A DNA stretch of 28,328 nucleotides from a virus: the IMG/VR virus record IMGVR_UViG_3300021225_000101, positions 1 through 28,328 of that record, one strand, 5' to 3'. Of the stretch, positions 4,332 to 24,780 are shown in pieces. Position numbers and translations under genes: made by a program. Within the stretch, counting starts at the first letter, position 1; every line of letters starts with the position of its first letter. The notes beneath the pieces were generated by a model that was given only the letters and a program-made list of their open reading frames with translations, did not search any database and was not told the origin of the DNA.

Positions 4332-4570
4332 TTCCACTCTCCTTGGTTACCTCGGTTACCTTTAGACCATTGGTCTCTAACATCTTTTTCAAGGTTCGAT
4401 TCGGGATGAAGTTCGTTCCACCCTTTAATCCACCTCCCACTGTTATTACTGTAGCCATTGAGCCAACGGTATGCACTATCACGATCTTTAATGCGCATCT
4501 TGATGACCTCCCGAACGAGACAACGGTACATATGCTCACGGACTCCAACGGCTTCTTCCTCGGCATTCAA
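4328..4570 (-). CDS. Hypothetical phage protein with a TTG start
   Basis: 80 aa, read from a TTG at 4570 that overlaps the helicase stop as TTGA, with GGAGGGAG at a good distance upstream. The sequence includes YRCLVREVIKMRIKDRDSAY and RWLNGYSNNSGRWIKGWNEL, a Trp- and Arg-rich pattern that looks like a real folded protein. The ATG-starting competing frame at 4566 gives a low-complexity Gly/Val product and breaks the ATGA chain, so it is rejected. Function unknown; it may assist the helicase that precedes it. Confidence 0.65.
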   Translation of the reverse strand: MNAEEEAVGVREHMYRCLVREVIKMRIKDRDSAYRWLNGYSNNSGRWIKGWNELHPESNLEKDVRDQWSKGNRGNQGEWK

Positions 4571-5968: not shown

Positions 5969-6615
5969 ACGCCCCTCCTGAACGGGTTGACTGGCTCGTC
6001 GCCGTCTTCCCATCGGCGCTGGTTGATGTAGGTCTGTGGGGCTGGCTCAAAGCCGTCTGTCCACTGCTTGGTGGACTTCATGCCCGTCACATGAGCAATG
6101 ATCTGGTCGGCCACCTTGTCCAGCCCGCCAGACACCCACTTCTTCTCGCAGGTGGCTTTGGCTACCTTGCGTGGTGACTTGGGCCAAACTTCCCAGAATT
6201 CATTGAATCGAGTCGACTTGGTCGACGATATATCTTTCTTCTGTTCTGTATCTGTTCTGTTCTGTTTGGGGGGGCTTAATGGTTCTTCTTTAGAAACCTC
6301 AATGGTTTTAGGTCTGCCGCCCAATTTTGCTGACCGACGGTTAAGTTCAACGCGAACATTGTAGGCCGCGATCTCTTTGTCGGCGCGGGTGTTGACCCAG
6401 CCATCGGCAGTCTTATCGAAAAACTCTTCGAGGACTGGGCGAACCACATCCTCGTCAAGTCGTATGCGTCGAGCCACCAACACCGTGTCCAGTGGTAGTG
6501 GCTTTTCGCCCATGTAGTACCAATCCAGCAAGCGACGGTATGCCAAGTCCTCGGCATCGTCCAAATGCATGGTGTGTGAGATGTAGTCGCCTATGTGGAA
6601 TTTGTACCAAATCAT
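5965..6615 (-). CDS. DUF1376-type phage replication protein
   Basis: 216 aa. Residues 1-75 show the DUF1376/YdaU pattern: WYKFHIGDYISHTMHLDDAE, DLAYRRLLDWYYM and PLPLDTVLVARRIRL. A polar linker (about 95-130, Lys/Ser/Thr/Gln-rich) leads to a second part FNEFWEVWPKSPRKVAKATC and a WTDGFEPAPQTYINQRRW end, which is the usual C-terminal part of phage replication-initiation proteins. The family is thought to recognise the phage origin and recruit the helicase; this is inferred from context. It is the second gene of the leftward early operon, coupled to the Cro-like gene (ATGA), and is followed by the zinc-ribbon protein and the helicase. Confidence 0.85.
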   Translation of the reverse strand: MIWYKFHIGDYISHTMHLDDAEDLAYRRLLDWYYMGEKPLPLDTVLVARRIRLDEDVVRPVLEEFFDKTADGWVNTRADKEIAAYNVRVELNRRSAKLGGRPKTIEVSKEEPLSPPKQNRTDTEQKKDISSTKSTRFNEFWEVWPKSPRKVAKATCEKKWVSGGLDKVADQIIAHVTGMKSTKQWTDGFEPAPQTYINQRRWEDGDEPVNPFRRGV

Positions 6616-9479: not shown

Positions 9480-11315
9480 TTATGGGGTAGATTCCTTGGC
9501 CGCTTCTTCTTGAAGCGCTTTGTATCCCTGATAAAGGCCCATCCCCACCGTGCCGATAGTGCCAGCGCCTTTGACTCGGGCTGTCTTTGGCCCCATCGCA
9601 GGAACCATTGCCGCCGCACCTGTCACCGTTTGAGCCGTCGCGCCCGTGGCTTGAGCCAGCGCCTGCAACAACTCGGGACTGCGGTCACCAGCCTGCCAGC
9701 GTTTGATCAGTTCGGCCACAGGAATGTTTGCCAGAGTATTGGCACCCGTAGCGGTCTCGTATCCACCTAACGCGCCCAAACCACCTTTAACGATGGTTGG
9801 AGCCTTTGCGGTTTTGACGCCCGTCACTTCCATTGGTCGAGCCAACGGGCCGGGGGCGGTCTTCGCGGCAGTGCGACCAGCCAGTAAATCAGCCTCAGCG
9901 GCGGCTTGTCGATCTGCGGCAGTCTCTGCGGCAGTTTGCGCACGAGTTACGCCTTGGGTTTTTGCACGCTGGGCTTGAGTCAGGGCCGTTTGGGCTTGGC
10001 TTTGACGCTGTGCCGCAAGGGCACGCTCGTTCTTCAGCCGTTGCATCTCTTGTTGTTGGGCCAGACGCTCCTGCGCGGCTTTGTCATCTGCCATGCGTTG
10101 TTCGAGTTCGGCCTGCGCTTGACGCTCACCAGCAAGGTCAGGGCTGACCATCACACCAGAAGGTGTCGAGCCACTGATGCCCTCAGTCAGGGCAAACGCC
10201 TTGCGAGGGTCAACGACGCCCTGCTGGCCGAGAGCCTGCAAGGTCTGCTGTTGCTGGGCCGCATTGCGGGCAATCTGCGAGGTGCGCTCGTTGTAGGTCG
10301 TCTGACGGGCGCGGCCAGTCACATCATCCACGGTCGTGCCCTGAATGGCTCGGGTGTGCTGATCTGCCGAAGGTTGGTTCGGGTCAGTGATGATCAAAGG
10401 GGCCGTGGTAGCCGCAGGAGCGGCCTGTGGGGCGCTTGGAGCGGCAGGTGCAGGGGTAGGTGGTACCTTGGCCTTTTGGGCCAGCGTGGCGGCCTGTAAT
10501 TCCTGCTCTGCCTGTTGCAATAGCATCTGAGACCTTTTGTACTCAGCCTCAAGTGTGGCAAGGTCTGTACCGCCAGCAATTGGCATTGCGCTGTTCATGC
10601 GCTGATCCAGACGCTGGGCGGCAATGTCTGCGCGGGTGCGTGCCTTGGTGGCCGCATCTTCCAACTTGGTAAGATCGGGAGCCTTGGCGGGCATCGATGG
10701 TGCAAAGGGAACTTGACCCAGCGTAGTAGATGCCGCACCAGTGGCCGCCGCTGTCAGGGGATCAATCACCTCTTTAGCCTGACCCTCGGTCGTTGTGGTG
10801 TCGCCAGTTTCACCGCGCTCTTCGCGCTCTTGTCGAATCTGCTCGGCCTGCGTAGGCGGACGCACGGTATCAATCTTCTCAGGGTCGGTGTAAAAGCCAG
10901 CCGTGAGTTGGTGTGCACCGCGAATCGCGTTCTCGTAATTCTCGTCTTCAGCGTAAGCGCCTTTGACACCTGTGCGCAAACCCTCGGCATACTTTGAGAT
11001 GTCTGCGCCAGCATTCAGAGCGTTGGGATACAGGCGGCGCATCATGTGCGCGTAGTAGTCGCCAAACGCTTCTGGGCTTTCAAAGTTCACATACTTGTCT
11101 TTGGACTTGGTCTTGTTGTCCGTGGCCTGCGTGCCTGTGCCAGAGAAGTCTTTGATGTTGCCAAAGTTGAAGTGGCCCGGAACCTTGCGGCCATAGTCGG
11201 ACTCCATGCCCCACTGAGCCAAAAGCACAGAGGGGGCAATACCAGTTTGCCTGCTCACCTGTACAGCGATTGGGCCGTACTCTTCGGTGAACATCTTTAC
11301 ATGGTCATTAGCCAT
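9480..11315 (-). CDS. Virion-associated glucosaminidase / ejection protein
   Basis: 611 aa. Residues about 5-150 are a FlgJ/GH73-like N-acetylglucosaminidase domain: GIAPSVLLAQWGMESDYG (likely catalytic Glu38), HFNFGNIK (49-55), then ESPEAFGDYYAHMMRR. The rest is low complexity: Thr- and Glu-rich linker, coiled-coil Gln/Ala/Arg region (about 230-460) and a Gly/Ala-rich C-terminal part with hydrophobic stretches (VTGAAAMVPAMG; GTIGTVGMGLYQGYKAL). This matches phage internal proteins that locally open the cell wall during DNA entry, as T7 gp16 does with a different lysozyme. It is the last gene of the late operon before the terminator; GGGGAG precedes the ATG at 11315. Confidence 0.85.
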   Translation of the reverse strand: MANDHVKMFTEEYGPIAVQVSRQTGIAPSVLLAQWGMESDYGRKVPGHFNFGNIKDFSGTGTQATDNKTKSKDKYVNFESPEAFGDYYAHMMRRLYPNALNAGADISKYAEGLRTGVKGAYAEDENYENAIRGAHQLTAGFYTDPEKIDTVRPPTQAEQIRQEREERGETGDTTTTEGQAKEVIDPLTAAATGAASTTLGQVPFAPSMPAKAPDLTKLEDAATKARTRADIAAQRLDQRMNSAMPIAGGTDLATLEAEYKRSQMLLQQAEQELQAATLAQKAKVPPTPAPAAPSAPQAAPAATTAPLIITDPNQPSADQHTRAIQGTTVDDVTGRARQTTYNERTSQIARNAAQQQQTLQALGQQGVVDPRKAFALTEGISGSTPSGVMVSPDLAGERQAQAELEQRMADDKAAQERLAQQQEMQRLKNERALAAQRQSQAQTALTQAQRAKTQGVTRAQTAAETAADRQAAAEADLLAGRTAAKTAPGPLARPMEVTGVKTAKAPTIVKGGLGALGGYETATGANTLANIPVAELIKRWQAGDRSPELLQALAQATGATAQTVTGAAAMVPAMGPKTARVKGAGTIGTVGMGLYQGYKALQEEAAKESTP

Positions 11316-13095: not shown

Positions 13096-14109
13096 TTACC
13101 CCACCAAGTAGCCGTGTTCGTTGTAATAGTTCCCTTGACCATCATGGTACGCCGCGCCAGCAGGCATGACATCTTCTACATCGCCTCCGTCGGCCATCAA
13201 CACAGCGCCGCCATCTGCTTTGGTTGCAACAGGTTTCCCTGCTTGCATTGCAGTGTTTGCGGCATTCTGAACCGATGTTGGATCGCCAGAATACAGCGAG
13301 TACAGGATCGAGCCAAGCGAACCGATTTGAGCCAGAGGGCTGACACCAAACTGACCTTGCTGGCCGGGGGCCACGGTTTGCTGAATTGATCCCATTGGAA
13401 CCATGCCTTGAGGCAACAACTTGGCATAGTTCTGCGCCGCAATCATTGGGTAGTCCAATGCCTTCTGGCCTAAGTCCTGCTGTTTTGCTCCGAGGTTGTA
13501 CAGCGCGTTCAGGCCACCAGTGCCCGTTTGGAACTGCTCTTGACCCAACTGAGTCAAGCCTTGGCCTGCGGACAATTGACGCGCTAGATCGGTTTGAGCG
13601 GCCTTTGTAGCCGTGTCGTAGCCGCCGCTAAGGGCTTGGTATTGCTTGCCCAGCAAATCGGCTTGGATGTCGCGCAAAGTGTTGCCAGTGATCTGCTGTT
13701 GACGGCGTGATCCAAATTGACCAGAGCCAACAGCCGCGCCACCCAAGGCGGGCAAAACATTTTCTTGGACATTACGCTGTGTCAAACGCCCCATCTCGTC
13801 CACAACAGCAGACTGGTAAGGGTTCATGTAGCCTTGAACAATCTCAGGGGCCGCTGTACCACCAGCACCTGTCAGCATCTGACTGGCTTGACCTAGTGAG
13901 CCAGTGCCAGAGAAGGCCAGATTAGGAGCCATCTGGAAGGCTTGCTGTTGCAACGGGCTAAAGCCAGCCACGCCTCCTTGCTGGACGGCGCTCTGACCAA
14001 GGTTTGCAATGTCTTGGAGGTAATTCGTGTAGAACTCGGGGGCGGTCTCCTGCTTCTGTACCGTAGTGGTTACATCAGGTAACGCCGCTCCTTGAAATAG
14101 ATCAGCCAT
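13096..14109 (-). CDS. Internal virion / DNA-ejection-like protein
   Basis: 337 aa. It has VAGFSPLQQQAFQMAPN, QGYMNPYQSAVVDEMGR and GAAVGSGQFGSRRQQQ, a set of motifs I recognise from structural proteins of many podovirus and marine phage genomes, where they occur in putative DNA-transfer proteins. The centre is Gln/Gly-rich and helical. The C-terminus is KADGGAVLMADGGDVEDV plus a short YHDGQGNYYNEHGYLVG tail, which resembles tail ends of other late genes. The ATG at 14109 overlaps the previous gene by 8 bases. The exact function is not known; a membrane or ejection role is inferred from the family. Confidence 0.8.
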   Translation of the reverse strand: MADLFQGAALPDVTTTVQKQETAPEFYTNYLQDIANLGQSAVQQGGVAGFSPLQQQAFQMAPNLAFSGTGSLGQASQMLTGAGGTAAPEIVQGYMNPYQSAVVDEMGRLTQRNVQENVLPALGGAAVGSGQFGSRRQQQITGNTLRDIQADLLGKQYQALSGGYDTATKAAQTDLARQLSAGQGLTQLGQEQFQTGTGGLNALYNLGAKQQDLGQKALDYPMIAAQNYAKLLPQGMVPMGSIQQTVAPGQQGQFGVSPLAQIGSLGSILYSLYSGDPTSVQNAANTAMQAGKPVATKADGGAVLMADGGDVEDVMPAGAAYHDGQGNYYNEHGYLVG

Positions 14110-17100
14110 TCATAGCCTCCTTGAGATAGTTCAAAGGTGATTTAGCCTTTGGTGGTATTTTACCGAGGGGGGCGCTTCTTTTGTGAGCGCGAACCTCCTC
14201 GCGGAATTTGTCAAGAACTTTTGCGCCAGCCTTGTTTGAGCCGTTGCCAAGCATGGAGACCAACTCGGCATCCATCACATACTCGCCATCGGCCAGCCAC
14301 GCTGGGATGTCGTCAGATTGACCATCACCAGCACCGTTTACAGCAGAGCCTTGACGGAAGTCGACACGGTTGTCGATCACTGGGTTGGTGTGATGGCTGT
14401 GCACGGTGTGAGCCTGCGACAGGCCACCCTTCTTCATGCCTTGAGCCAAGCCAAGACTTTCAGCGGGATCAATCACACGACCAAAGGTGTAGTGAGTCGT
14501 TGGGCCACCTGCGGCCATTGCTGGTTCTTCAGCCACCTCATTGGCGTTCTCTTCAGGTGTCTCGGTGTCATCCAAGTAGTTGCCGTATTGATCTACAGCC
14601 GCGCCGTTTTCGTCGGTGTAGTCGGTCATCTCGGGTTCGTTGAGCCAGCCTGAAATGCCGAGGTCAGAATACAGACGCTCGTCAGGTGTCTCGTCGCCGT
14701 AGTCTTCAGCATAGTCTTGATACGACACGATAGGGCTACCAGTGCCTGTGCGGCCACCAGTCATGCCGGGGCCAAAGTCAGTGGTGCGAGGATTGATCGC
14801 AGTCAGTGCAGAGATGTCCACGGGCTGTGATGGGCCAGCAGAACTGCTGTCGCCTGCTTGGCTCATCAACGATGAAAGCAAAGCGCCGATTGCGCCACCA
14901 GCAAGGCCGGGGTTCTCGGTAATGTAATTTTTCAGTTGATCCAAAATGCCAGTTTGGTCTGGTGTGTTTTGAGTTGGGTTTACTCGCTCATTCAGCGTTG
15001 CAAAACTTGGGCGATTGCCACCACCAGCAGATGTCACAGGGCCAACAACACGGCCACCACCAACAGGAATCACATTCCCGCTTGGGTCATAGACAGTCAT
15101 GTTGCCATAGCCATCGGTGACGATGGTATTACCCTCTTCGTCAACAGTGGTCTGGTAACCGTCAGTTGTACCAGCAATATTGCCATCGGCATCTACAGTG
15201 ATCGTGCTACCGTCATCAAATGTTTGGATGTATGAGCCATCATCAAAGTATTGAATGCCGGGTGTAGGAGAGAAGTCAGAAGTAATGTCGGATTCAGGCA
15301 AAGATGCCGAACGCAGATAGGTGTTGCCCACTGGATTGCTATTGCCAGTCAGCGTGTAACCAGTCATGGTCGGATCATCAAACTCGCCGTAGTTGTAATC
15401 AACATTCTGCCAAGGCTGAACTTCTTCTGTGGTGTCTGAATAGTCCACGGTATCTCCATCAGCAAAGCGCGGTAAACCGCCTTTTGTTTTGTGATGAATA
15501 GAGCCGCCACGCTTTGCTTCGGGAGGCTCTTCATCGTCAGTTGTGTAATCTGTTTCGTCGGTGTTGTCCGCGACGGTGTAATCTGTGTTGTCGGTTGTGT
15601 CTTCGCCTTCAAGAGACCAAGAACCATCGTCAGCCATGTTCCAGACTTCACCAGTATCTGGGTCTGTCCAAGTGTTGTCGGCGGTATCCGTGCTTGTGTC
15701 GTCGCCGCCTTCCATTGACCAAGTGCCGTCTTCAGCCAAATTCCAAACCGCGCCTGTATCAGGGTCAGTCCAAGTCGACGCATCAGCAGTTGTCTCATCA
15801 GCGTTCGGGTCGTAGATCAACTCACCAGTGGGATCGTAGTATTCGCCGTTCTCGCCCACGGCATACATCAAGTCACCGCTGGCACCGTAGATGTTGCCTT
15901 CGTCATCTTGGAAGTAGCCTTCACCAAGGTCAGTCATGGTGGAAGTGTCGCCAGTCAAACTGCGAGTTGTTCCGCCAGTGGTGTCTTCCCCAGTGTCTTC
16001 GCCTTGAGCCAATGTGTCAGCCGCAGGGCCTTCATAGCCAATCAGTTGGCCGTCAGCAGAGTAGGTCGAGATGTTGCCGTCAGCATCAGTGACGGTATAG
16101 GTTCCATCTTCTCCAATCACAGCGTCATCAGGAGGGCCGTTTGCAAGTTCCTCTGCTTTGACGCGATCTAATTCCGCCTGAACTTCTTCGTCAGTCAGGG
16201 TTGGATTTTGTGCCTCAATCTCTGCTTTTTTGGCCGCATCATCTTTTGCTGTTTTAGCCGCCGCCGCGCCCGCAGGGGTTGACTTTGGAGTTACCTTGGC
16301 AGTGCCGCCAGTAGGAATGCCAGTAGGTCGAGTTGTCGTTGTCTTTGTGCCGCCAGTTGGAACTCCAGTTGGCTTGGTCACGGTTGTGCCACCAGTAGTC
16401 GTTTTGCCACCAGTAGTTGTCTTGCCGCCACCCAACACTTTACCCAAGAGCGCACCAGCGCCAGCACCTGCAATCGTCTTAGCGATAGGGTTGTTCAAGA
16501 TGCTGGTCAACTTGCTACCAGTCGTTGTTTTTGGCGTAGTAGTTGTTGTTTTTGTCGTAGGGCTTGTAATTGGCTTCACAGGTGAAGTCGGTGTCTTAGC
16601 CGTTGGCGTTGTAATAGGCTTGACAGGCGCTTTAGGCGTAGTAGGAGTCTTAGGCGTTGTAGGCGTCTTTGTACTCGTAATAGGCTTTACAGGCGATGCA
16701 GGCGTTTTAGTCGTGCTTGTAATTGGTTTGACAGCAGAAGTTTTTACCGCGCTCGATGCAGGTTTTACAGTGGCCGCAGTCTTGGTTGATGTAGTCTTAG
16801 GTGCGACAGGCTTGACCACAGAAGTGGCTGGCTTTGATACAGCAGAAGTAATTGGAGCCGTAGGCTTTGTCGCCATGCCTGAAGGCGCAACTGGACGAGT
16901 CGCAGGCGATGTAACAGGGCCAACAGGGCGAGGAGCCGCTTGCGTTCCGCCAGCAGGGCGAACAACAGAAGTCACCGCCTGATTGATTGGGGTTCTTTGC
17001 TGACCGCGAATGTTGTCAAACCCACCACGGTCACCACCAAAACCAATATCCAAAGCACGGGGCTGGAATTGCTGGCGCGGAGCGTTACGCATCACCGAAC

Positions 17101-17155
17101 TGATGGTTCGGACGGGCGTCCTAGTTTCCATTGGGTTGCGAACTGTTCTTGCCAT
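14102..17155 (-). CDS. Giant low-complexity virion protein with tandem repeats
   Basis: 1017 aa. Residues 1-215 are Pro/Thr/Lys/Ser-rich with four VKPIT repeats (142-198). Residues about 220-245 form a glycine-zipper-like hydrophobic patch (IAKTIAGAGAGALLGKVLGG). Residues about 340-620 are acidic and full of DGN/DGS turns and two WTDPDTG repeats (461-483, 495-517). The C-terminal ~80 residues carry GQSDDIPAWLADGEYVMDAE plus a Gly-Asn-Gly-Ser segment and AGAKVLDKFREEVRAHKR, a conserved module found in many podovirus structural proteins (SDxIPAxLSDGEFVM type). No enzyme motif. Probably an internal or tail-linked protein that acts in genome entry. Confidence 0.8.
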   Translation of the reverse strand: MARTVRNPMETRTPVRTISSVMRNAPRQQFQPRALDIGFGGDRGGFDNIRGQQRTPINQAVTSVVRPAGGTQAAPRPVGPVTSPATRPVAPSGMATKPTAPITSAVSKPATSVVKPVAPKTTSTKTAATVKPASSAVKTSAVKPITSTTKTPASPVKPITSTKTPTTPKTPTTPKAPVKPITTPTAKTPTSPVKPITSPTTKTTTTTPKTTTGSKLTSILNNPIAKTIAGAGAGALLGKVLGGGKTTTGGKTTTGGTTVTKPTGVPTGGTKTTTTRPTGIPTGGTAKVTPKSTPAGAAAAKTAKDDAAKKAEIEAQNPTLTDEEVQAELDRVKAEELANGPPDDAVIGEDGTYTVTDADGNISTYSADGQLIGYEGPAADTLAQGEDTGEDTTGGTTRSLTGDTSTMTDLGEGYFQDDEGNIYGASGDLMYAVGENGEYYDPTGELIYDPNADETTADASTWTDPDTGAVWNLAEDGTWSMEGGDDTSTDTADNTWTDPDTGEVWNMADDGSWSLEGEDTTDNTDYTVADNTDETDYTTDDEEPPEAKRGGSIHHKTKGGLPRFADGDTVDYSDTTEEVQPWQNVDYNYGEFDDPTMTGYTLTGNSNPVGNTYLRSASLPESDITSDFSPTPGIQYFDDGSYIQTFDDGSTITVDADGNIAGTTDGYQTTVDEEGNTIVTDGYGNMTVYDPSGNVIPVGGGRVVGPVTSAGGGNRPSFATLNERVNPTQNTPDQTGILDQLKNYITENPGLAGGAIGALLSSLMSQAGDSSSAGPSQPVDISALTAINPRTTDFGPGMTGGRTGTGSPIVSYQDYAEDYGDETPDERLYSDLGISGWLNEPEMTDYTDENGAAVDQYGNYLDDTETPEENANEVAEEPAMAAGGPTTHYTFGRVIDPAESLGLAQGMKKGGLSQAHTVHSHHTNPVIDNRVDFRQGSAVNGAGDGQSDDIPAWLADGEYVMDAELVSMLGNGSNKAGAKVLDKFREEVRAHKRSAPLGKIPPKAKSPLNYLKEAMNG
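15605..15775 (-). repeat. Two-copy WTDPDTG repeat in the 1017-aa protein
   Basis: Residues 461-483 and 495-517 share TWTDPDTGxVWNxAxDGxWS with conserved Trp, Asp and Gly, 34 residues apart. The acidic linkers (GGDDTSTDTADN and the following EDTTDN) differ in sequence. The repeats look like small beta-hairpin units and have likely arisen by duplication. Confidence 0.8.
16520..16843 (-). repeat. Pro/Thr/Lys-rich coding repeats
   Basis: Within the 1017-aa gene (residues about 105-212) the units VKPITS, VKPITS, VKPITT and VKPITS recur with TxTTPK linkers. The DNA shows the repeat as GGCTTGACAG- and AGGCGT-like blocks. It looks like a disordered, positively charged spacer that changes length by slippage; it is a protein repeat, not a CRISPR or transposon. 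Confidence 0.75.
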
Positions 17156-17158
17156 AAT

Positions 17159-18976
17159 TTATCCCGGTTTCTTTGCTTTGTTCAAAATTGATGTCAGGGT
17201 TGCCATGTTTGAAACTGGAGTTAATTTAGTTACATCCATTTTCGCAGAAGGCATGACAGGAGACACTGTTTTCTTTGCCACAGGAATCAACTTGCTCACA
17301 TCCATTTGAATTGGAGGTCTAGTTGGTTTTGCCGAGGCAACCTTCATGGCGGCCAATTGAGCCGCTGTAGGCTGTGCCCTTACTGGAGCCTTGGCAGAAG
17401 TCATTGGCTTGGTCAGACCTTTGGTCAACGCAGTTTTTGCCTGCCCCTTGATCACGGAAGTCAATTTATTCACAAGAGCCGTAGTTCCTGCGCCTGCGGC
17501 TCCAGCGGCCCCAGCAGTTGCTGTTGCGTCTTTTGCCGCACCCTTGGTTGTGTCTTCACCTTCGGTTTGCGCTTTTTCTTCGCCAATTGTTGAGAGCACA
17601 TCTGAGCCACCACCAGAGGTCGTGTCAGTTGCGGCAGTTGTTCCAGTGGTGTCACCAGCCGCCGCGACCTGATTCAAGCCACCAGTTGTAGTAGTTGTGA
17701 CAGGCAGTTCGCTATCAGTCGTGGTGGTTGCCGCAGTGGTTCCACCAGTTGTGGTATCAGCAGTAGAAGTTCCGCCCACAATGTCATCAATTGTTCTGTC
17801 AACATCTTTTTCACCAGTCAGAGTTGTTGCGGCAGTTGTGTCGCCAGCCTTGGTGGTGTCAGCCTCAGTGTCAGTGCTCAAAACTTGATTCAACCCACCA
17901 GTTGTGGTCAGGTCTTCGTTCTTCGCATCGTTTTCGGCCACCGCAGACAAGCCACCTTCAGTCGAACCAGTCTTGGTAACGCCCTCTTGATCTTCGCCAG
18001 TAATGGAGTCATCAACACCAGAAGATTTTGTGAAGTCAGAGACAGCGTTTGCACCTTGATTGATGACCTCACCAATACCAAGATTGAGCAGGCCAGTAGT
18101 TGCATCTTTGCCAGTCACCACGCTATTGGTCACGCTAGATGCGGCCTTGCCCACAAGGTCAGACCCAGTCTCGTCCGCCACTTCGCTACCAACAACTTTG
18201 CCCAAGGTTGAGCCAGCAAGGCTGGTTAGATTGATGTCGCCAGTGGTCACCAATTGTTTTGCGGCATTCGATGCAACATTACCAGCCAAAGTAGAGCCAG
18301 TCACATCGGCAACTTCAGCACCAAGGAAACCAGTGCCAAAAGACAAGCCAGTATTCAGCAGAGCCTTTTCAAAGTCGCCGCCATTCGTCGCAGTGTTCAC
18401 TGCAACTTGACCTGCAAGTTTTTGCAAAGTTGAATCAGCGCCGGGGGCCAATGTCTCGCCAATAGTCTGCACAATATTTTGTGCGCCAGAGGACAGGGTG
18501 TTCCATGCGTTTGAGAGGCTTTCGGTCGCGGTGCTTGCAACCTCGGTCAATGTGCTGGTTTCAACAGCGCCAGCAGTGGCAGAGGACACAGCCTCAGCAA
18601 CCGTTGCGCCTTCAGCAGTCAGTGATGCCGCAGTAGTTGCCTCAGCGACTGTAGCGCCAGCCTCAATAACAGTAGCGGCGGCGGCAGTCTCTGCGCTGGC
18701 AACAGCCGTAACGGTTCCAGTTGCTTCAAGCACAGCGGCTCCAGCCTCAACAGCCTCGGCGGCTCCAGCGACTTCTAGCGCCCCGACAACGCCAGCCTCG
18801 GCGGCCAAAGCGCCAAGTGCATACGGCGCGGCAATCGCGGCCACAATGAGTAACGGGTTTTCTGCCACGGTGTCAATGACCTTTTCGGCAACATTCACAA
18901 CCTCTTCAAGTACATCACCAACAGCGTCGACGACATCTTCGACGACATTGACAATTGCGCGGACTACAGCGGACAT
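17159..18976 (-). CDS. Large Ala/Thr/Val-rich virion protein
   Basis: 605 aa. Residues 1-45 are helical and Val-rich (VVRAIVNVVEDVVDAVGDVL), then a very Ala/Thr/Val-rich region to about 180. Residues about 200-320 contain near-repeats such as LAGNVASNAAKQLVTTGDI and DLVGKAASSVTNSVVTGKDA, followed by Thr/Gly/Asp-rich disordered sequence and a final basic part (KTALTKGLTKPMTSAKAP; MDVSKLIPVAKKTVS). No enzyme motif was found. The start at 18976 is a TAATG overlap with the GNAT-like gene. It probably belongs to the ejection apparatus with the next four genes. The hydrophobic helices could contact the membrane, and so could be a target for modification by the upstream cassette. Confidence 0.75.
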   Translation of the reverse strand: MSAVVRAIVNVVEDVVDAVGDVLEEVVNVAEKVIDTVAENPLLIVAAIAAPYALGALAAEAGVVGALEVAGAAEAVEAGAAVLEATGTVTAVASAETAAAATVIEAGATVAEATTAASLTAEGATVAEAVSSATAGAVETSTLTEVASTATESLSNAWNTLSSGAQNIVQTIGETLAPGADSTLQKLAGQVAVNTATNGGDFEKALLNTGLSFGTGFLGAEVADVTGSTLAGNVASNAAKQLVTTGDINLTSLAGSTLGKVVGSEVADETGSDLVGKAASSVTNSVVTGKDATTGLLNLGIGEVINQGANAVSDFTKSSGVDDSITGEDQEGVTKTGSTEGGLSAVAENDAKNEDLTTTGGLNQVLSTDTEADTTKAGDTTAATTLTGEKDVDRTIDDIVGGTSTADTTTGGTTAATTTTDSELPVTTTTTGGLNQVAAAGDTTGTTAATDTTSGGGSDVLSTIGEEKAQTEGEDTTKGAAKDATATAGAAGAAGAGTTALVNKLTSVIKGQAKTALTKGLTKPMTSAKAPVRAQPTAAQLAAMKVASAKPTRPPIQMDVSKLIPVAKKTVSPVMPSAKMDVTKLTPVSNMATLTSILNKAKKPG

Positions 18977-19425
18977 TATTTGTGCTCCCTTGCTGGGCCA
19001 AGTTGCAAGGTGACCTGCATTCCACCGTCTTCAGTCTTTTGGGCCACATAGCCCATTTTTTCACGCACAGGATTGCGTGAGATAACCTTGAAGATTCCAA
19101 GAAGACTTGTATCATTGAATTGGGTCACCACTACATCAAAGCCAACTTTGTATGCGGCGTCAGCAAATACTCGACCGCTCTCAATAAAGTTGCGTGGTAC
19201 ATCAGCATTCAGGGCGCGGAAATAACCGTAGCCGGGGTATTTGGTTTTGTGCACCACAAAAATGGTATTGCCGTGTTGCATCTTCCAAACATTGGGCATA
19301 CTGAATTCAATGGTCAGCATCTCCTTGACCTCTTTAAAAGGTCTGCCCACCTTGGTGTTGGCGGCGGCGATACCAATGATCTCCTCGCTCGTCAACTTCC
19401 GCTGTTTGCTGTCTACCATTTCCAT
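18976..19425 (-). CDS. T7 gp13 / GNAT-like protein beside the ketosynthase
   Basis: 149 aa. The core shows HGNTIFVVHK (51-60), a helix (RVFADAAYKVG, 85-95), the strand DVVVTQ (97-102), FNDTSLLGIFKVIS (103-116) and MGYVAQKTEDGG (124-135). The order strand, helix, strand with NxxS, then GYxxxxxxxGG is GNAT-like, and is like T7 gp13, a small internal virion protein with the same fold. I see no clear acetyl-CoA-binding loop (Q/RxxGxG/A). The ATG at 19425 directly follows the ketosynthase stop (TAA then ATG), with AAGGGA upstream. An acyltransferase or an inactive structural relative are both possible; the first would fit the acyl-carrier gene two genes upstream. Confidence 0.6.
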   Translation of the reverse strand: MEMVDSKQRKLTSEEIIGIAAANTKVGRPFKEVKEMLTIEFSMPNVWKMQHGNTIFVVHKTKYPGYGYFRALNADVPRNFIESGRVFADAAYKVGFDVVVTQFNDTSLLGIFKVISRNPVREKMGYVAQKTEDGGMQVTLQLGPAREHK

Positions 19426-20535
19426 TTACATTCCCTTCAGTATCGCGGCGGAGTAGATATTTCCCATGCCAGCCGCCAAACTGAGAATAAGCCCATCAGG
19501 CGGGCTTACTGGTTCCGACAGGAAAACCTTATCGGTTTCTGTACGGTTTTCAATGGCAGGCACAACGCCTTTTTTAATGTCATCCAACAGCAAAAGGGTC
19601 TCCAAAAGACCACTCGCGCCCATCGTATGACCGATTTTTTGTTTGTATGAGGTGGCGACAAACTCTTTCAGCGTGTTTTCCAACGCTGTTTTCTCCGCCA
19701 GATTGTTAGATTGTGTCCCAGTTCCGTGTGTTTTGACAATAGAAATCTGGTCTGGAATGACATCAGAAACGGCCATAGCGCCTTCAATTGCCTTGACGAA
19801 GCCTTCGCCATCTTCACACTGTCCAATTGCGTTTGTGGACGATTCTGACGCGCTGTAGGCACCAATCAGTTTGGCGCGGGGATAGATGTCTGACTTTTCA
19901 ATGACTCGGTCGGAATCAAACACCGCAAAAGCGGCCCCTTGACCGACATGGAAGCCGTAATTCTTGCTGTCAAACGCAGAAGGCAAAAAGCCAGCCTCCT
20001 CCTCTTTGGCAGATAAGGTAGCCCGTGCTTCTCCAAAGAACTCTAGCACAGCATCTGACACGCCGTCCTCAACCGTGAGCACAATTACCCGGTCAAATTT
20101 GTAGAACTTGATCAGCGTTTGGACATCCATTAAGGTTTTCAAACTGCTGGCACAAGCCGATGAATCTGTCACCACATGGTCGCAAGCGCCACAGGCTTGC
20201 GCGATCCTGCCAGCGTAGACCTGAGTCAGCGTGAAGGGCAAGAACTTGTATTGGTAGGTCAGGCGGGTGTTGTAGGGGCGCTGGCTGATGCCTGCAAAGT
20301 GAGCATTACCGCCAGCAAGGATAAATGCAGTCTTGCCCACAGGGTTCTCGCGCAGGTGCTTCATCAACTCAGGATCAAGCACTTTTTCGGCTACTTTATG
20401 GGGGGCATAGAAAAGCCCACTTTTGGAGCGGGCGTAGGTGTCAGGGAACCAATTTACCCTTTGAGGGTAGACGATGTCGTCGAATAACTCGACATTTGTT
20501 GTGGAGGCTGTTCGGTAGTGGGTCAAGTAGATCAT
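19426..20535 (-). CDS. Beta-ketoacyl-ACP synthase (FabF/KAS-type condensing enzyme)
   Basis: 369 aa. All three catalytic residues are present: Cys128 in TDSSACASSL, His270 in VKTHGTGTQSN, and His303 in KIGHTMGASG. This Cys-His-His set is that of condensing KAS I/II and polyketide ketosynthases (not KAS III, which has His-Asn). FabF of E. coli has about 413 aa, with Cys163, so roughly 35 residues are missing before the catalytic Cys and the N-terminal start has no usual VVVTGxG opening. The end (LAAGMGNIYSAAILKG) differs from the usual GFGGTN. It should join acyl and malonyl groups on ACP by decarboxylation. It is coupled to ACP by an ATGA overlap at 20532-20535. No ketoreductase, dehydratase or acyltransferase genes are nearby. 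Confidence 0.92.
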   Translation of the reverse strand: MIYLTHYRTASTTNVELFDDIVYPQRVNWFPDTYARSKSGLFYAPHKVAEKVLDPELMKHLRENPVGKTAFILAGGNAHFAGISQRPYNTRLTYQYKFLPFTLTQVYAGRIAQACGACDHVVTDSSACASSLKTLMDVQTLIKFYKFDRVIVLTVEDGVSDAVLEFFGEARATLSAKEEEAGFLPSAFDSKNYGFHVGQGAAFAVFDSDRVIEKSDIYPRAKLIGAYSASESSTNAIGQCEDGEGFVKAIEGAMAVSDVIPDQISIVKTHGTGTQSNNLAEKTALENTLKEFVATSYKQKIGHTMGASGLLETLLLLDDIKKGVVPAIENRTETDKVFLSEPVSPPDGLILSLAAGMGNIYSAAILKGM

Positions 20536-20819
20536 TTGATCTGCTCCTTGGCCTTCTCCACTGACTCTGGCTCGGTTGTCTTGTTTGCCATCATCAGGTC
20601 ATAAACCTCTTGCACAGTGGTAGGGTGCCAGCCTTTTGTCTCGTCATTGTCTGGGATGCCGTAGAGTTCACACAGATACATCATCATCACCAAGCCATCG
20701 AGGCTGTCAAGCCCAAGGTCGGCCATCTTCTCTTCCATCGCCGTGGCTGGCGTAAAAGACATATGCACAGGCTTTGCAACCTTTGCCACCATGTTGAAGA
20801 GTTCAATGAAGTCGATCAT
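20532..20819 (-). CDS. Acyl carrier protein
   Basis: 95 aa from the ATG at 20819, which overlaps the previous stop as ATGA; the longer open frame is not used. The site for the phosphopantetheine arm is Ser39 in LGLDSLDGLVMMM, with the canonical D-S-L and the helix II pattern DSLDGLVMMMYLCELYGIP. Helix I (FIELFNMVAKVA) and the late helix (TTVQEVYDLMMANK) also fit. The final ~15 residues form an extra charged tail. It needs a phosphopantetheinyl transferase; none is in the window, so the host AcpS is the likely supplier. Its only clear partner in the window is the ketosynthase downstream. Confidence 0.9.
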   Translation of the reverse strand: MIDFIELFNMVAKVAKPVHMSFTPATAMEEKMADLGLDSLDGLVMMMYLCELYGIPDNDETKGWHPTTVQEVYDLMMANKTTEPESVEKAKEQIK

Positions 20820-21076
20820 CCCACTCGTGCCTCTGTTGGTTGATTTATAGCGCCAACAATTGCTTGCGCCCAATCCTGCCAATTATCAAACACATATGGG
20901 CCGGGAATGCCTTCGTTCACAAAAACATCAATTGCCTTTAAACCAGCCGCCCACTCTTTCCAGTTCTCTTCCCCGGCTGGGATGGATAACTGCTGGCCTG
21001 CATACGCCTCGCACATGAGCGATGCCCATGAGTCCCAAGTGTGGAAGCGAGGATCGTAAACAAGCGCCAGTGCCAT
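20816..21076 (-). CDS. Small tryptophan-rich hypothetical protein
   Basis: 86 aa from the ATG at 21076, chosen because the GGAAG ribosome-binding site precedes it and it starts directly after the hub gene's stop; the longer frame overlaps the hub gene more. It has ALVYDPRFHTWDSWASLMCE, EENWKEWAAGLKAIDVFVNE and YVFDNWQDWAQAIVGAINQP, with six Trp. It is acidic and helical. The stop overlaps the ACP start (ATGA). No known family; it may be a tail or assembly protein, or a partner of the acyl cassette. Confidence 0.7.
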   Translation of the reverse strand: MALALVYDPRFHTWDSWASLMCEAYAGQQLSIPAGEENWKEWAAGLKAIDVFVNEGIPGPYVFDNWQDWAQAIVGAINQPTEARVG

Positions 21077-21077
21077 A

Positions 21078-22910
21078 TTAACTTCCGTAAGGGCGTACAT
21101 CGCCCACATTGGCACTCAGCAAGACTCTACCCATCTGGTAGTCGCCATCCTGAACATTGCTGGTAAAGCGCAAACGCAATTCGCGTCGCTGTTCGCGCAT
21201 ATCAATCTTGCCCGTATTGGGGCTAAACACATAAGGCGTGGAGGTTACATCTGTGCCTTGAGCAAACGGCCTACCAGTCACTTGCAAACTCATGTCGCCA
21301 GACTGAATGAAGTCAGGTTCAACACGCTCAAGATGCAACCAGAAGTTTTCTCCAACACCGCCTTGAGGAACTTGCGGAGATTGGCTCGGGCCACCGCCAA
21401 CCCATCCAAGGTCAGAGGTCTCAAAGTAAGACTCAATCGCATCAATGTTCTGGCCGTTGATTGCGTTTGTTCCAATTTCGTGTTGCCACAAAGTGATGCG
21501 GCCAGCAGTCGTATTGAATGTGGCCGTGACGGTTCCAGACGCTGTAGCATCTTCACTTAGCGTGACCGTGTAATAACCAGCAGTCGCACTAGGTGCAATT
21601 GCAATGATCAAAGAGTTGTCAGCGATACCTGTGCCAATGACCAATTGACCCAATGAAATTTGGTTGGTAACAGGAACTTCAATTGCTGGGTTCCCGCTGA
21701 CCGTTGTCACCGTTGCAGAAAAAATCTCTTCTTGAGTTGATAGGTCTGTTCCAGCATTGATGGGGTACTTGAACACTTGAGAGAAATATCCAGCAGTGCG
21801 ACGAGCACCAAGAGCCTGTCCACCGTCATACCAACAGTTCTCGCGGATGTTGTAGATCACGCAATCGTTGCACTCTTCGCTGTCGCCAGAAGGGAAGAAC
21901 CACCAAATCTCGCCAAAGCGAGGAACCTTTTGTGCCCACACTTTTTGACGCTGTGCATAGTTCAGATTGTCAAAGAAGTAGTTCTGGTTCATGGTGTTTG
22001 GAATTTCCTTCACAACACCGTTGTAGAGCAAGAAGCGGTCAACGCCACACCAGTAGTAGATGCCGTCATACTCAATGACAGACTGCGACGACAAGATAGA
22101 CGACTGGCTGGAAATAATGTCATACCGCCAGTAAAAAGTCTGAGGCGTGCCACCCACCGTAATTGTGGTGGGGTTGTATGAAACTCGGATCAATGAGTCC
22201 AAAGACCAGAACAATCCAGATGGAGCGTTTGAACCGCCTCGAACTGGCAAGCCTTTGACAATTTTGGTTGATGCCACATTGGTCTCATTGGCATCTGCGC
22301 CGTTCCAGTTGTATGGATCGCCAGCGGCTGAATTCTTGATCAGGCCGTTATCTCCATACACAAACACATACGGGTGCAAAACAACCACGCCGCCAGAAAC
22401 TTCAATTGGGTCTCCAGTAGGCGTTGGGCCAGCAGAGTCTGTGAGTTGGGCCATCGTTGTGCCGTTGATGTCACCAGCCAATACTGGGGTCACAACAGTT
22501 TGGTCAATCTCAGCCAAATTCTGTCCGGGATGGGCAAGCAACAATTGATTGCCAGAGCCTTGTGAATCAAACAAAGAATCAAACTGCCACAGATTCAAAT
22601 CTGAAGGCGTGAAGTTTGATAGCGTAAATTCGCTCACGCCAGCACCAACACCGTTGTTGTCAATGTTGATGACTTCAAGGCCATTGTTGTAGCCGTTGAA
22701 AATCTGGTTGATGCCGTCTACAGAGTTGACATAGATGCCTCGAGAATATCCCAACGCATCATTTGTAATTGAGCGGTAGCCCCAAATCTTGCGAGGACGA
22801 CCACGCTGGAATCTAACCCAGCGGCCATCCGTATAAAAGTTTTTGTCAAAGACAGTGCCGTCCCGCTGTACACCGGGAAGGGTGTCAATCGAAAAAACTT
22901 TTTTTGTCAC
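21078..22910 (-). CDS. P22 gp10-like tail hub / DNA-stabilisation protein
   Basis: 610 aa, GTG start at 22910 (GTGA overlap with the previous gene). The N-terminal KVFSIDTLPGVQRDGTVFDK, GRWVRFQRGRPRKIWGYRS and WSLDSLIRVSYNPTT are typical of P22 gp10-like hub proteins, which form a beta-propeller hexamer that closes the portal channel and carries the tail needle or fibres. Residues about 388-465 look like an inserted beta domain (EEIFSATVTTVSGNPAIEVP up to ATASGTVTATFNTTAG), unlike the propeller around it. The C-terminus has ELRLRFTSNVQDGDYQMGRV. It is among the key pieces of evidence for a podovirus. Confidence 0.85.
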   Translation of the reverse strand: MTKKVFSIDTLPGVQRDGTVFDKNFYTDGRWVRFQRGRPRKIWGYRSITNDALGYSRGIYVNSVDGINQIFNGYNNGLEVINIDNNGVGAGVSEFTLSNFTPSDLNLWQFDSLFDSQGSGNQLLLAHPGQNLAEIDQTVVTPVLAGDINGTTMAQLTDSAGPTPTGDPIEVSGGVVVLHPYVFVYGDNGLIKNSAAGDPYNWNGADANETNVASTKIVKGLPVRGGSNAPSGLFWSLDSLIRVSYNPTTITVGGTPQTFYWRYDIISSQSSILSSQSVIEYDGIYYWCGVDRFLLYNGVVKEIPNTMNQNYFFDNLNYAQRQKVWAQKVPRFGEIWWFFPSGDSEECNDCVIYNIRENCWYDGGQALGARRTAGYFSQVFKYPINAGTDLSTQEEIFSATVTTVSGNPAIEVPVTNQISLGQLVIGTGIADNSLIIAIAPSATAGYYTVTLSEDATASGTVTATFNTTAGRITLWQHEIGTNAINGQNIDAIESYFETSDLGWVGGGPSQSPQVPQGGVGENFWLHLERVEPDFIQSGDMSLQVTGRPFAQGTDVTSTPYVFSPNTGKIDMREQRRELRLRFTSNVQDGDYQMGRVLLSANVGDVRPYGS

Positions 22911-24145
22911 GAGAATACCCCGCCAGAAACGCCACCAGTGAAGTTGCCAGTGCCAACAATTGCCAGCCCAGTGGCAGACAATGTGGAACGCAACACTCCA
23001 AGAACAGCAATGTTGAACTCACCCGATGCCGCATGGTAGATACCAGTTGTTGGCTCAGACGCAAAGTTCAAAGATGGGTTGGACACAGTGCCGTTAAGCA
23101 AACTGATCGCAGAAGAACCAGCCAACACCGTGTTGGCGTTGAGCAAGTTCACAGAGTCACAAATCAGCGTCGCTTGGTTACCTGCGGCAATTGTGGCCGT
23201 GGATGCACCACCTACGCCCGTGCTAACTGTGAGTGTGTATGAGCCTGCTGTCGTCGCGTTTTGCACATAGTAAACCTGCACAGTCTGCGGAACGATGATG
23301 GTCACATTACCAGTCAGCGTGCCCGTGTACTTCTGGATCACATTTGATGCCTCTGCGGCGGTCAATGTGTAGGTTCCATTGGTCACATTTTTGGTCAACT
23401 GTGTGAAGTTGAACTGTGTCGATTTACCCAAGCCAACCGTATAAAAAGTTGATCCGCTACAAACAATGATGGCCGAATCGGAAGGCTGGAAGATGATCGT
23501 AGATGAGCCGTTGATAGTGTCACCACCAGAACCAGCCACAGTCAAAGCGCCCGTACCGCCGTTACGCAAGAACATGAACCAGTTGTCGCCAAGGGTTGAT
23601 GCGCTTGAAAGAGTCAAAGTGCCAGCGCCACCAGTCCACACATAGGTGTTTGAGCGGTCAGACGATAGCGCAGTGTAATTGGATGAGAAGGTCGTAACAG
23701 GCTGAGACTGGTTCAGAGTCTGGCCGATAGCCAGCAAGCCATATCCAGCCAGCGTAGCGGCATCTGCGCCAGAAGAGCCAATACCAAAAGCAATGATGCC
23801 CCAAGTGCCATAGACATCAGGATTTTCAGTGATATAGATGTACTGCGCTTCGCCTGCGGCCACAGTCACAATCGTGTTCTGGCCCGTGAAGTCATAGACC
23901 GTGAAGTCGTTTACGCCGACATTTCGGATCAGGGCGTCTTGACCAACAGAGGCTTGGTTGGCAGGAGGCATCCACAACTGCGCATTGTTGGTGGCAGTGA
24001 CCTCCATGATGCGTGCGGCGGCATCGTTGGTTGCAGTGCCGTTAATAGGCCACTCCAACTGCAAATCCGCACTTAGCGTGATGGCACGATAAGAGACATC
24101 CGTTGGTTGGACGACATTACCAGTAAAAGGGCTGTTGTAACTCAT
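22907..24145 (-). CDS. Tail fibre-like beta-rich structural protein
   Basis: 412 aa from the ATG at 24145 (TAATG with the adaptor gene). It is rich in Thr, Ser, Gly, Ala and Val with many short strands: SADLQLEWPINGTATNDAAA, AQYIYITENPDVYGTWGIIA, NGTYTLTAAEASNVIQKYTG and the conserved ending NPSLNFASEPTTGIYHAASG followed by VLGVLRSTLSATGLAIVGTG. The ending is one I recognise from tail fibre proteins of several phages. It probably forms trimeric fibres on the virion near the hub. No catalytic motif was seen. Confidence 0.75.
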   Translation of the reverse strand: MSYNSPFTGNVVQPTDVSYRAITLSADLQLEWPINGTATNDAAARIMEVTATNNAQLWMPPANQASVGQDALIRNVGVNDFTVYDFTGQNTIVTVAAGEAQYIYITENPDVYGTWGIIAFGIGSSGADAATLAGYGLLAIGQTLNQSQPVTTFSSNYTALSSDRSNTYVWTGGAGTLTLSSASTLGDNWFMFLRNGGTGALTVAGSGGDTINGSSTIIFQPSDSAIIVCSGSTFYTVGLGKSTQFNFTQLTKNVTNGTYTLTAAEASNVIQKYTGTLTGNVTIIVPQTVQVYYVQNATTAGSYTLTVSTGVGGASTATIAAGNQATLICDSVNLLNANTVLAGSSAISLLNGTVSNPSLNFASEPTTGIYHAASGEFNIAVLGVLRSTLSATGLAIVGTGNFTGGVSGGVFS

Positions 24146-24780
24146 TATGAATCCACCGCTACGGCTTGACGATCAGCAGTTCTCAGTTTGTCTTCGGCCA
24201 TCAAGGTCTGCATGATCAGGTCATAGTTTTGTTGCCACATGGGCATACGCTCATCGTTCTTGAGGAACGGCATAGCCTGCAACAAAGACCCGTACAGCAA
24301 CGCTTGGGGCGCGTAGATCGTGAACCAATTCGTCTGGTTGGAAGAATCCAAAGGTTGGATGCGCTCGTAATACAGCACCTCAAAGGTGTAGTCTGTATCA
24401 GGAGTTGGGGCAACCAGCCAGTGGGTGTAGTCGTAGTCCGCAAAATAAGCGGGCGTACCAGTCTTGGTCGCATCGGGCCAATACTCACGAAGGTACTCGT
24501 ACTTGCGCAACAGCACGGGTTGGCGAACGCCAGCCACAGTAATGTTGAACGAAACCGTTTTGTGCCAGCGGGCAGGCTTGTCAATGACCGCTTGGTTGGA
24601 AACCATTGTGGATTCCTGAACGGTTAAGTTGCCAAGGAATTTGATCTGGCTGGCGATAATTTGCTCGGCCAGCATGATGAAGAGAGGGATTTTCTCGAGC
24701 GTGGCGGTGTCAGTACGCTCCAGATAGGACTGGATGTTTTCGACCAAGGAGTCATAAGTCATTACCGATGCGGTCGTCAT
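24145..24780 (-). CDS. Phage adaptor (tail-completion) protein
   Basis: 211 aa, starting MTTASVMTYDSLVENIQSYL, followed by PLFIMLAEQIIASQIKFLGN and the beta-rich VIDKPARWHKTVSFNI, YEYLREYWPDATKTGTPAYF, YFADYDYTHWLVAPTPDTDY and VLYYERIQPLDSSNQTNWFT. This is the typical layout of the podovirus adaptor family (T7 gp11 / P22 gp4 like in role) that binds under the portal. GGGGAA precedes the ATG. It lies directly downstream of the lysis genes and upstream of the fibre and hub genes. Confidence 0.85.
   Translation of the reverse strand: MTTASVMTYDSLVENIQSYLERTDTATLEKIPLFIMLAEQIIASQIKFLGNLTVQESTMVSNQAVIDKPARWHKTVSFNITVAGVRQPVLLRKYEYLREYWPDATKTGTPAYFADYDYTHWLVAPTPDTDYTFEVLYYERIQPLDSSNQTNWFTIYAPQALLYGSLLQAMPFLKNDERMPMWQQNYDLIMQTLMAEDKLRTADRQAVAVDS

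Follow-up and report, generated by a model that had tools for sequence, protein, structure and literature searches.

A Predicted GNAT-Fold Protein Linked to an Acyl Carrier Protein and a Beta-Ketoacyl-ACP Synthase among Phage Virion Genes

A stretch of viral DNA of 28,328 nucleotides (IMG/VR record IMGVR_UViG_3300021225_000101, here called the window) encodes a protein with a predicted GNAT fold, GP, whose gene follows directly on those of an acyl carrier protein (ACP) and a beta-ketoacyl-ACP synthase (KAS). GP lies directly downstream of KAS in 122/122 distinct loci with room for it, among the loci listed. We think the odds slightly favor GP being a non-catalytic virion-assembly factor of the gp13/gp14 type, with the linked ACP/KAS pair as a separate, optional cassette; we infer the absence of catalysis by GP, its role in assembly and the purpose of the KAS product. 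In a large group of phage contigs GP is joined to an ACP/KAS pair that is apparently active; the loci that naturally lack the pair act as built-in controls, and the question why a virion operon holds a GNAT fold becomes testable. Were GP purely structural, one would still have to explain why two metabolic genes are so strictly retained among those for the virion.

Results and Discussion

Gene Order around GP

The features of the window are listed in Table 1. GP is a real gene, with relatives of 45-93% identity in 25 viral contigs (confirmed by tblastn) and further ones from a later scan of related loci. The order of genes is adaptor, 412-aa protein, 610-aa protein, P99, ACP, KAS, GP and the presumed ejection cluster, with ACP and KAS as the only genes between P99 and GP. 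GP begins immediately past the KAS stop, in agreement with the original prediction, which had placed it directly downstream of the pair, and the COIL gene overlaps GP by one base. An ejection role of the downstream cluster is presumed from its proteins matching phrog_4287 and Glucosaminidase; COIL itself matched neither Pfam nor PHROG at E 0.1. A relative of the 610-aa protein in MW202545.1 carries the annotation "phage stabilization protein."

Table 1: Position of GP and neighboring features in the window (coordinates include the stop codon for GP).
Feature	Position	Strand	Remarks
GP, GNAT-fold protein (predicted), 149 aa	18976..19425	-	ATG start; from the ORF, relatives and model
KAS, beta-ketoacyl-ACP synthase, 369 aa	19426..20535	-	Cys-His-His motifs; PF02801 (E 8.6e-16), PF00109 (E 1.8e-9), phrog_35856 (E 2.4e-42)
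Acyl carrier protein (ACP), DSL phosphopantetheine site	20532..20819	-	ATG inside longer listed ORF 20532-20882
P99, 86-aa protein, upstream edge of the ACP/KAS slot	20816..21076	-	ATG inside longer ORF 20816-21115
COIL, 605-aa protein, hydrophobic N-terminal part, first gene of presumed ejection cluster	17159..18976	-	
Putative DNA ejection protein, 337 aa	13096..14109	-	phrog_4287 "DNA ejection protein" (E 0.0014)
611-aa protein, N-terminal peptidoglycan-hydrolase domain, end of presumed ejection cluster	9480..11315	-	PF01832 Glucosaminidase (E 2.4e-12)
610-aa virion structural protein (nozzle/DNA-stabilization type)	21078..22910	-	phrog_3287 (E 2.5e-21)
Head-tail adaptor	24145..24780	-	PF24175 SU10_adaptor (E 4.1e-25)

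By motif pattern, the Cys-His-His catalytic motifs of KAS are present in the window protein and in 86/86 relatives covered to more than 95%. ACP matched phrog_5934 "acyl carrier protein" (E 0.0064) and no Pfam family at E 0.1, and its phosphopantetheine serine stands in a DSL motif in the window protein and likewise in 86/86 relatives. Judged by these intact motifs, the pair in these contigs is apparently active, and it would form a separate cassette in the same gene run as GP. Fifteen distant KAS matches (23-29% identity) in Listeria, Enterococcus, Staphylococcus, Pseudomonas and faecal "phage" records without annotation were not counted; they are probably host fabF.

The Predicted Fold of GP and Its Missing Motif

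The AlphaFold model of GP (mean pLDDT 90.0, pTM 0.83) has the secondary-structure order H-H-E-E-E-H-E-H-E-E. In the VIA comparison it aligned with RimI (2cnm_A) over 124 residues (Z 11.4, rmsd 3.3) and with HP0935 (8iyo_D) over 125 residues (Z 11.4, rmsd 2.8), and nearly all of the 50 VIA matches listed bear acetyl- or acyltransferase titles. The fold search on the predicted model confirmed the GNAT fold that had been proposed for GP, and with it the fold superfamily. HlyC- and LuxI-type GNAT relatives use acyl-ACP. They have the general fold in common with GP, and the AHL synthase TofI (3p2h) is among the Foldseek matches listed for it (rank 21, E 2.4e-3, TM 0.43), but GP has no match to their family profiles. 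Titles of the HlyC or LuxI type are absent among the 50 VIA matches listed, which is not evidence of absence. RNase E matches in the Foldseek list (TM 0.35-0.37) were set aside and not counted as evidence.

GP matched no Pfam or PHROG family at E 0.1, and phmmer against the PDB returned two chance matches only (E 0.24 and 0.87). A profile search with 14 members of the GP family listed no acetyltransferase family and no LuxI- or HlyC-type Pfam family at E 1, a listing limited by the HMMER filters, which discard most matches above 0.1.

The canonical acyl-CoA motif of GNAT proteins is the Q/R-x-x-G-x-G/A loop between beta4 and alpha3. GP had been described as lacking an obvious acetyl-CoA motif, and indeed none of the 91 distinct GP proteins (98 proteins less two short ones and five duplicates) has [QR]xxGx[GA] at residues 74-80, the beta4-alpha3 junction; eight of them show a match at another place. 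Canonical CoA binding has probably been lost in GP. Ten residues are invariant in all 91 proteins, including the eight from loci without ACP/KAS. To judge from strand order, the strictly conserved N53, N73 and D75 and the near-strict N79 would be situated at the sheet's cofactor end, and their conservation looks more like that of a ligand site than of scaffolding.

GP could also be a conventional GNAT enzyme, dependent on acetyl-CoA and unrelated to ACP/KAS, whose substrate would be a protein of the virion or of the host. Its closest folds among the matches listed, RimI and HP0935, are protein N-acetyltransferases, and host RNA polymerase is acetylated by a phage GNAT according to the available part of PMC7824862. 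We nevertheless regard such an enzyme as unlikely, given the want of any acetyltransferase family match among the 14 members at E 1, the loop missing from the junction throughout, and residue 112, which by eye appears to occupy the usual motif-B tyrosine position and is Phe, Ala or Leu.

Comparison with T7 gp13, P22 gp14 and Other Phages

The T7 gp13 family (PF11090, "probable scaffold protein Gp13"; "internal virion protein A") has a GNAT fold in the model, as GP does: the gp13 model (pLDDT 93) matched 4u5y_A with Z 12.2 and rmsd 2.5 over 127 aligned residues. Against predicted viral structures, the GP model matched two "Internal virion protein A" entries (E 2.7e-4 and 3.2e-3), a name that one record gives to T7 gp13 too. 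These two matches and one DUF2824 protein are shared by the GP and gp13 models, the DUF2824 match of GP being weak (E 1e-2); A0A8S5SAL7 and A0A0F7LBN1 are viral structure matches common to both.

The sizes are also similar, with 138 aa for T7 gp13 and 151 aa for P22 gp14 against 149 aa for GP. In the T7 order 12-13-14-15-16, gene 13 stands directly upstream of the ejection-protein genes, as GP does upstream of its presumed ones, and in the P22 order 4-10-26-14-7-20-16 gp14 lies in a like position, between the tail-needle gene and 7-20-16. Unlike the window, T7 has no ACP/KAS between genes 12 and 13, and P22 has none between genes 26 and 14.

P22 gp14 belongs to DUF2824 (PF11039, E 6.1e-53), a family for which no match was listed at E 1 with the 14 GP family members. 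GP had no PF11090 match, and hhalign against T7 gp13 gave a probability of 0.1%; direct sequence homology to gp13 was sought by Pfam, PHROG and hhalign, all negative. The label "T7 gp13-like" in the original prediction thus holds for fold and gene position and fails for sequence, and since no sequence-level homology was found, it is fold and position that carry the case for common descent with gp13/gp14. T7 gp13 also shows one motif-A-like match at the junction of its beta4 and alpha3 (residue 70), where the GP family has none, so that the two families do not cleanly share the loss of the motif; within the gp13 family, however, the glycine of that match is not a conserved column.

We propose that GP may be the counterpart of T7 gp13, by fold and position, and of P22 gp14, by family and position, and that it may assist the presumed ejection proteins encoded just downstream in folding, loading or assembly.

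A GNAT gene beside internal virion proteins and likened to T7 gp13 is already published: in cobaviruses and SIO1 such a gene (pc40) adjoins the internal virion protein genes and is compared with T7 gp13 and virion morphogenesis, according to the available part of PMC6775973. That GNAT was recognized by BlastP and InterProScan, whereas GP has no acetyltransferase family match, and in the same part of the paper we found no mention of ACP/KAS. In the literature searched, as far as its text was available, we found this suggestion of a morphogenesis role (PMC6775973) and no explanation for an acetyltransferase fold beside T7- or P22-type ejection genes. SbzI, a GNAT whose structure has also been determined with its carrier-protein partner SbzG (8zt3, 8zt4), occurs among the matches listed for T7 gp13 and is absent among the 50 VIA matches listed for GP.

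Linkage of GP with ACP/KAS

The scans for related loci kept the best 80 of 177, the best 80 of 178 and the best 80 of at least 562 candidates, so that locus counts refer to the loci returned. As the loci were found through GP or KAS, their frequencies do not stand for those in the population, and phages having lost both genes fall outside the sampling. Merging by identical DNA gave 139 distinct loci, with the window not among them and the T7 and P22 loci (L036, L037, L112-L140, L221) left out by design; nine that end 450 nt or less from KAS were not counted, leaving 130. The pair stands beside GP in 122 of these.

That KAS does not occur without GP rests on the two KAS-led scans, which overlap: GP was present in 74/74 loci with room (of the best 80) and in 73/73 with room (of 77 new loci). 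The arrangement persists where the surroundings change. In loci L223-L256 (not deduplicated) the P99 and 610-aa proteins of the window are undetectable by tblastn, yet GP is found in 31/34, the three loci without a visible GP ending at KAS; in a MAG contig (L222), too, GP follows KAS directly. In 56/89 loci there is a 4-nt overlap between the KAS stop and the nearest start codon of GP. Pairwise distances over 53 loci correlate at 0.86 for GP-KAS and 0.88 for GP-ACP, against 0.57 for GP-P99, but physical linkage can explain the correlation with KAS and ACP because GP-COIL correlates as well (0.90). ACP/KAS would have been inherited as a block with GP and the COIL gene; some GP-bearing lineages lack it.

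Loci with GP but without ACP/KAS

The eight loci of the 130 listed that have GP without ACP/KAS rule out a tie without exception; L175 and L176 carry the same GP gene and count as one of the eight. The pair-less L005 has a GP 77% identical to that of the window. P99 is present in 8/8, and the ACP/KAS slot is closed to about 23-73 nt in six and holds another gene in two. KAS was found in none of the eight records searched whole (some of them short fragments), with 3/3 controls positive. On the GP tree, the support of which is partial (39/88 inner branches drawn open, long branches), the pair-less label needs three changes, at least two by starred branches.

In a distance regression limited to one GP clade, with non-independent pairs (29 loci for P99 to GP, without L216), GP was more divergent in 6/7 pair-less loci; that of L005 showed no excess (rank 11 of 22). 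The controls were mixed overall. From adaptor to P99 the pair-less loci were not extreme (ranks 3, 5, 5 and 13 of 14), while L033, L034 and L030 were also low from P99 to COIL (ranks 1, 2 and 2 of 20), as were L033 and L034 from adaptor to COIL (ranks 1 and 2 of 15). Together, the linkage in 122/122 loci and the divergence of GP in pair-less loci suggest more than chance neighborhood; the link is real, and stronger than the original prediction knew.

One alternative takes this link as shared ancestry within one phage group and ACP/KAS as auxiliary metabolic cargo in a tolerant late-operon slot. In its favor, the slot is filled by other genes in L028 and L030 (encoding 312 and 430 aa and including a DUF4214-like stretch) and closed in the other six pair-less loci, and roseobacter prophages carry acpP/fabF/fabG in the available part of PMC8224337; those sets resemble the window in being phage-borne ACP and KAS but include fabG, while the window has ACP and KAS only, inside a virion gene run. 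We doubt the cargo explanation, however, as KAS never stands apart from GP in the 122 loci listed, some of them with upstream genes that the proteins of the window do not recognize.

Another alternative is a working unit, in which KAS would make or extend an acyl chain carried by the phage ACP. From there GP, in the manner of HlyC or LuxI, would transfer the chain to a virion protein, whether one of the ejection proteins or another, and so facilitate entry through the membrane; where the pair is missing, acyl-ACP of the host would be used or the modification would have been lost. The unbroken order of KAS and GP, its persistence in L223-L256 and L222, the overlapping codons, the intact KAS and ACP motifs, the distance correlations with KAS and ACP and the TofI match all fit such a unit, as do two residues: F112 is Phe in 83/83 GP proteins from pair-bearing loci and in 4/8 from pair-less ones, and M124 is Met in 82/83 versus 3/8. 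This hint rests on two lineages because the pair-less L005, L176 and L216 keep both residues.

Several results weigh against a working unit. E40, G52, N53, H59, N73, D75, N79, G95 and G143 are all present in the eight pair-less GP proteins, and H59, the likeliest-looking candidate catalytic histidine, is Ile in L035, a phage with ACP/KAS. No LuxI- or HlyC-type Pfam match was listed for the 14 members, TofI is a single entry amid many acetyltransferases, and the GP-COIL correlation is explicable by physical linkage. A shared acylation site was sought in the first 140 residues of COIL and not found: in 87 pair-bearing sequences, conservation of Lys or Cys fell short of 85% in every column. The original prediction had taken GP for an acyl-ACP-dependent transferase and had itself named a pocket conserved in relatives without the pair as evidence against this; the pair-less relatives do keep the same conserved residues. 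The enzyme idea is thereby no more than weakened, because host ACP might still serve a phage that carries none. Of the link that the prediction drew between GP and the ACP pair, linkage is supported and enzymatic dependence is not; an enzymatic partnership of GP with ACP/KAS may exist, but we consider the working unit improbable. We give an equally small chance to ACP, KAS and GP being a phage carrier-protein unit that acylates the ejection apparatus, or builds a small acyl ligand into it, during virion assembly. If that were true, the GNAT fold that precedes the ejection genes of podoviruses would be a remnant or relative of carrier-dependent transferases.

The column of COIL that differs most between the two sets is an Ala near the N-terminus, present in 81/87 pair-bearing and 1/8 pair-less sequences.

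Fold and gene position of GP

GP, the 149-aa protein encoded directly after the acyl carrier protein (ACP) and β-ketoacyl-ACP synthase (KAS) genes of the window, is most likely a gp13/gp14-type assembly factor that has a GNAT fold but lacks the canonical cofactor loop. The ACP/KAS pair is most likely an optional, probably active and tightly linked cassette. The window comprises the entire virus record (28,328 bases), and the features discussed here are collected in the table.

Features of the window and genes found between P99 and GP in two related loci
Feature	Position	Strand	Size	Remarks
GP	18976-19425	minus	149 aa	ORF
KAS	19426-20535	minus		zero gap to GP
ACP	20532-20819	minus		upstream of KAS
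COIL	17159-18976	minus	605 aa	1-base overlap with GP
P99			86 aa	upstream of KAS
Virion protein			610 aa	upstream of KAS
412-aa protein			412 aa	upstream of KAS; weak tail-fibre match
Adaptor				upstream of KAS; SU10-type
Protein downstream of GP				weak "DNA ejection protein" match
Last protein of presumed ejection cluster	9480-11315			Glucosaminidase domain, E 2.4e-12
Slot gene in L028	4063-5001		312 aa	DUF4214-like stretch, E 2.3e-5
Slot gene in L030	4261-5553		430 aa	DUF4214-like stretch, E 3.5e-4, below curated cut-off

At E 0.1, neither Pfam nor PHROGs gave a match for GP, and profile searches with 14 members of its family up to E 1 returned scattered weak matches and nothing more. An AlphaFold model built on an alignment of 24 sequences (mean pLDDT 90, pTM 0.83) was similar in the VIA comparison to RimI (Z 11.4, rmsd 3.3, 124 aligned) and HP0935 (Z 11.4, rmsd 2.8, 125 aligned), and nearly all VIA rows listed carried acetyl- or acyltransferase titles. 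Foldseek agreed, with GNAT rows at modest TM-scores of about 0.43-0.59. The model's matches among predicted viral proteins included two entries named "Internal virion protein A" (E 2.7e-4 and 3.2e-3) and, at a weak E of 1e-2, one DUF2824 protein. The viral matches of a T7 gp13 model (14 sequences, pLDDT 93) included the same two entries and the same DUF2824 protein. With a Z of 12.2 to a GNAT domain, this second model bears out, at the level of models, the original prediction of a GNAT-fold relationship for T7 gp13. By way of the DUF2824 match, and of the membership of P22 gp14 in DUF2824, the same probably holds for the P22 gp14 family. Sequence comparison found no similarity between GP and the T7 gp13 family, and we therefore do not claim membership of GP in PF11090.

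The gene orders of T7 (12, 13, 14, 15, 16) and P22 (4, 10, 26, 14, 7, 20, 16) resemble that of the window in that a GNAT-fold or DUF2824 gene immediately precedes known or presumed ejection genes. In cobaviruses, the available text of PMC6775973 describes a GNAT gene adjoining internal virion proteins and likens it to T7 gp13 and a morphogenesis role. For a T7-like phage, the only main-text occurrence of the gp13 homologue's tag is in the genome table, which leaves the protein out of the list of particle-detected proteins (PMC4517105); such a pattern would be in keeping with an assembly factor that the mature virion lacks or contains in small amounts. Two long proteins with a high content of Thr, Ala and similar residues (1017 and 605 aa; 14102-18976) are encoded after GP in the window, and the presumed ejection cluster ends with a protein that joins a peptidoglycan hydrolase to a possible ejection protein.

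GP with and without ACP/KAS

Related loci came from scans that kept the best 80 of 177, 178 and at least 562 candidates; 267 were listed, 139 of them distinct by DNA. KAS was followed directly by GP in 122 of the 139 distinct loci listed, 9 ended too soon after KAS to show GP, and 8 carried GP without KAS. KAS without GP was found in none of the 122 distinct loci listed with room for it; phages having lost both lie beyond the reach of these searches. In six of the eight pair-less loci no more than about 23-73 nt separated P99 from GP, where the window has ACP/KAS; in the other two (L028 and L030) another gene with a DUF4214-like stretch filled this slot. As these two phages carry a different gene in place of ACP/KAS, the slot may be a site where accessory genes are exchanged. 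Searches of the eight pair-less records in full (longest 56.7 kb, some short fragments; controls 3/3 positive) found no KAS, and no ACP was detected in the eight loci; GP is therefore able to occur where the phage has no ACP/KAS of its own. Mapped on the GP tree, the pair-less state requires three changes, at least two of them forced by well-supported branches.

KAS has at least 562 relatives in IMG/VR; 16 phage records matched, with a close relative in MW202545.1 only (65%). No phage ACP/KAS in a comparable virion-gene setting was found in the literature searched, which covered few subscription journals; the nearest published case, in the available text of PMC8224337, is that of the acpP/fabF/fabG sets of roseobacter prophages. 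The Cys-His-His motifs of KAS and the DSL motif of ACP were intact in 86/86 each, so the pair is probably active, to judge from sequence.

Conserved residues and enzyme motifs

Ten residues (S6, L11, E40, G52, N53, F56, N73, D75, G95 and G143) were identical in all 91 distinct GP proteins, pair-less ones included, and H59 was kept in 90, the exception being a pair-bearing locus (L035). The idea that GP is an acyl-ACP-dependent transferase fails in its strict form under the refuting condition originally attached to it, since pair-less relatives keep the same invariant residues; a host ACP could serve GP, so the idea survives in a looser form. The usual GNAT pyrophosphate loop, Q/R-x-x-G-x-G/A, was absent at GP residues 74-80 from all 91 proteins. 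Unlike GP, T7 gp13 has one match to this motif at its own beta4-alpha3 junction, although the glycine is not conserved in the gp13 family. No LuxI- or HlyC-type family model was among the matches listed up to E 1 for 14 members of the GP family.

Linkage of GP to ACP/KAS

In L223-L256, where the window's P99 and 610-aa proteins were undetectable by tblastn, GP followed KAS in 31 of 34 loci; the remaining three ended at KAS (loci not deduplicated). ACP, KAS and GP were also consecutive in the MAG contig L222, the next protein being COIL-like by eye and missed by tblastn; carrying this set, L222 is probably a phage contig within its Balneolaceae bin. The binned contig (1-12432) also has a 2OG-Fe(II) oxygenase gene at 1585-2283. 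A 4-nt overlap between KAS and GP was seen at 56 of 89 loci.

Across 53 loci, GP distances correlated with those of KAS (0.86), ACP (0.88) and COIL (0.90), versus 0.57 for P99 and 0.53 for the adaptor. These correlations mark the run from ACP through KAS and GP to COIL as a single unit of inheritance, with a possible recombination boundary upstream of ACP, and are compatible with function or physical linkage alike. Within the window's GP clade, GP divergence exceeded the P99-based expectation in six of seven pair-less loci (ranks 0 or 1 of 22), with no excess in L005 and mixed controls for this comparison. F112 was present in 83/83 and M124 in 82/83 pair-bearing phages, and both were changed in two pair-less lineages. 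Throughout the group, COIL kept the hydrophobic pattern of its N-terminal part and had few invariant positions there; a search of this part for a conserved acceptor residue found none. We consider it unlikely that the ejection apparatus undergoes a modification dependent on a carrier protein.

Elsewhere in the window, a 100-aa protein (1814-2116) matched the RecA-dependent nuclease PF16786 (E 2.7e-9), near RusA (3477-3821), a DnaB-like helicase (4567-5565) and a DnaG zinc-ribbon protein (5558-6013).
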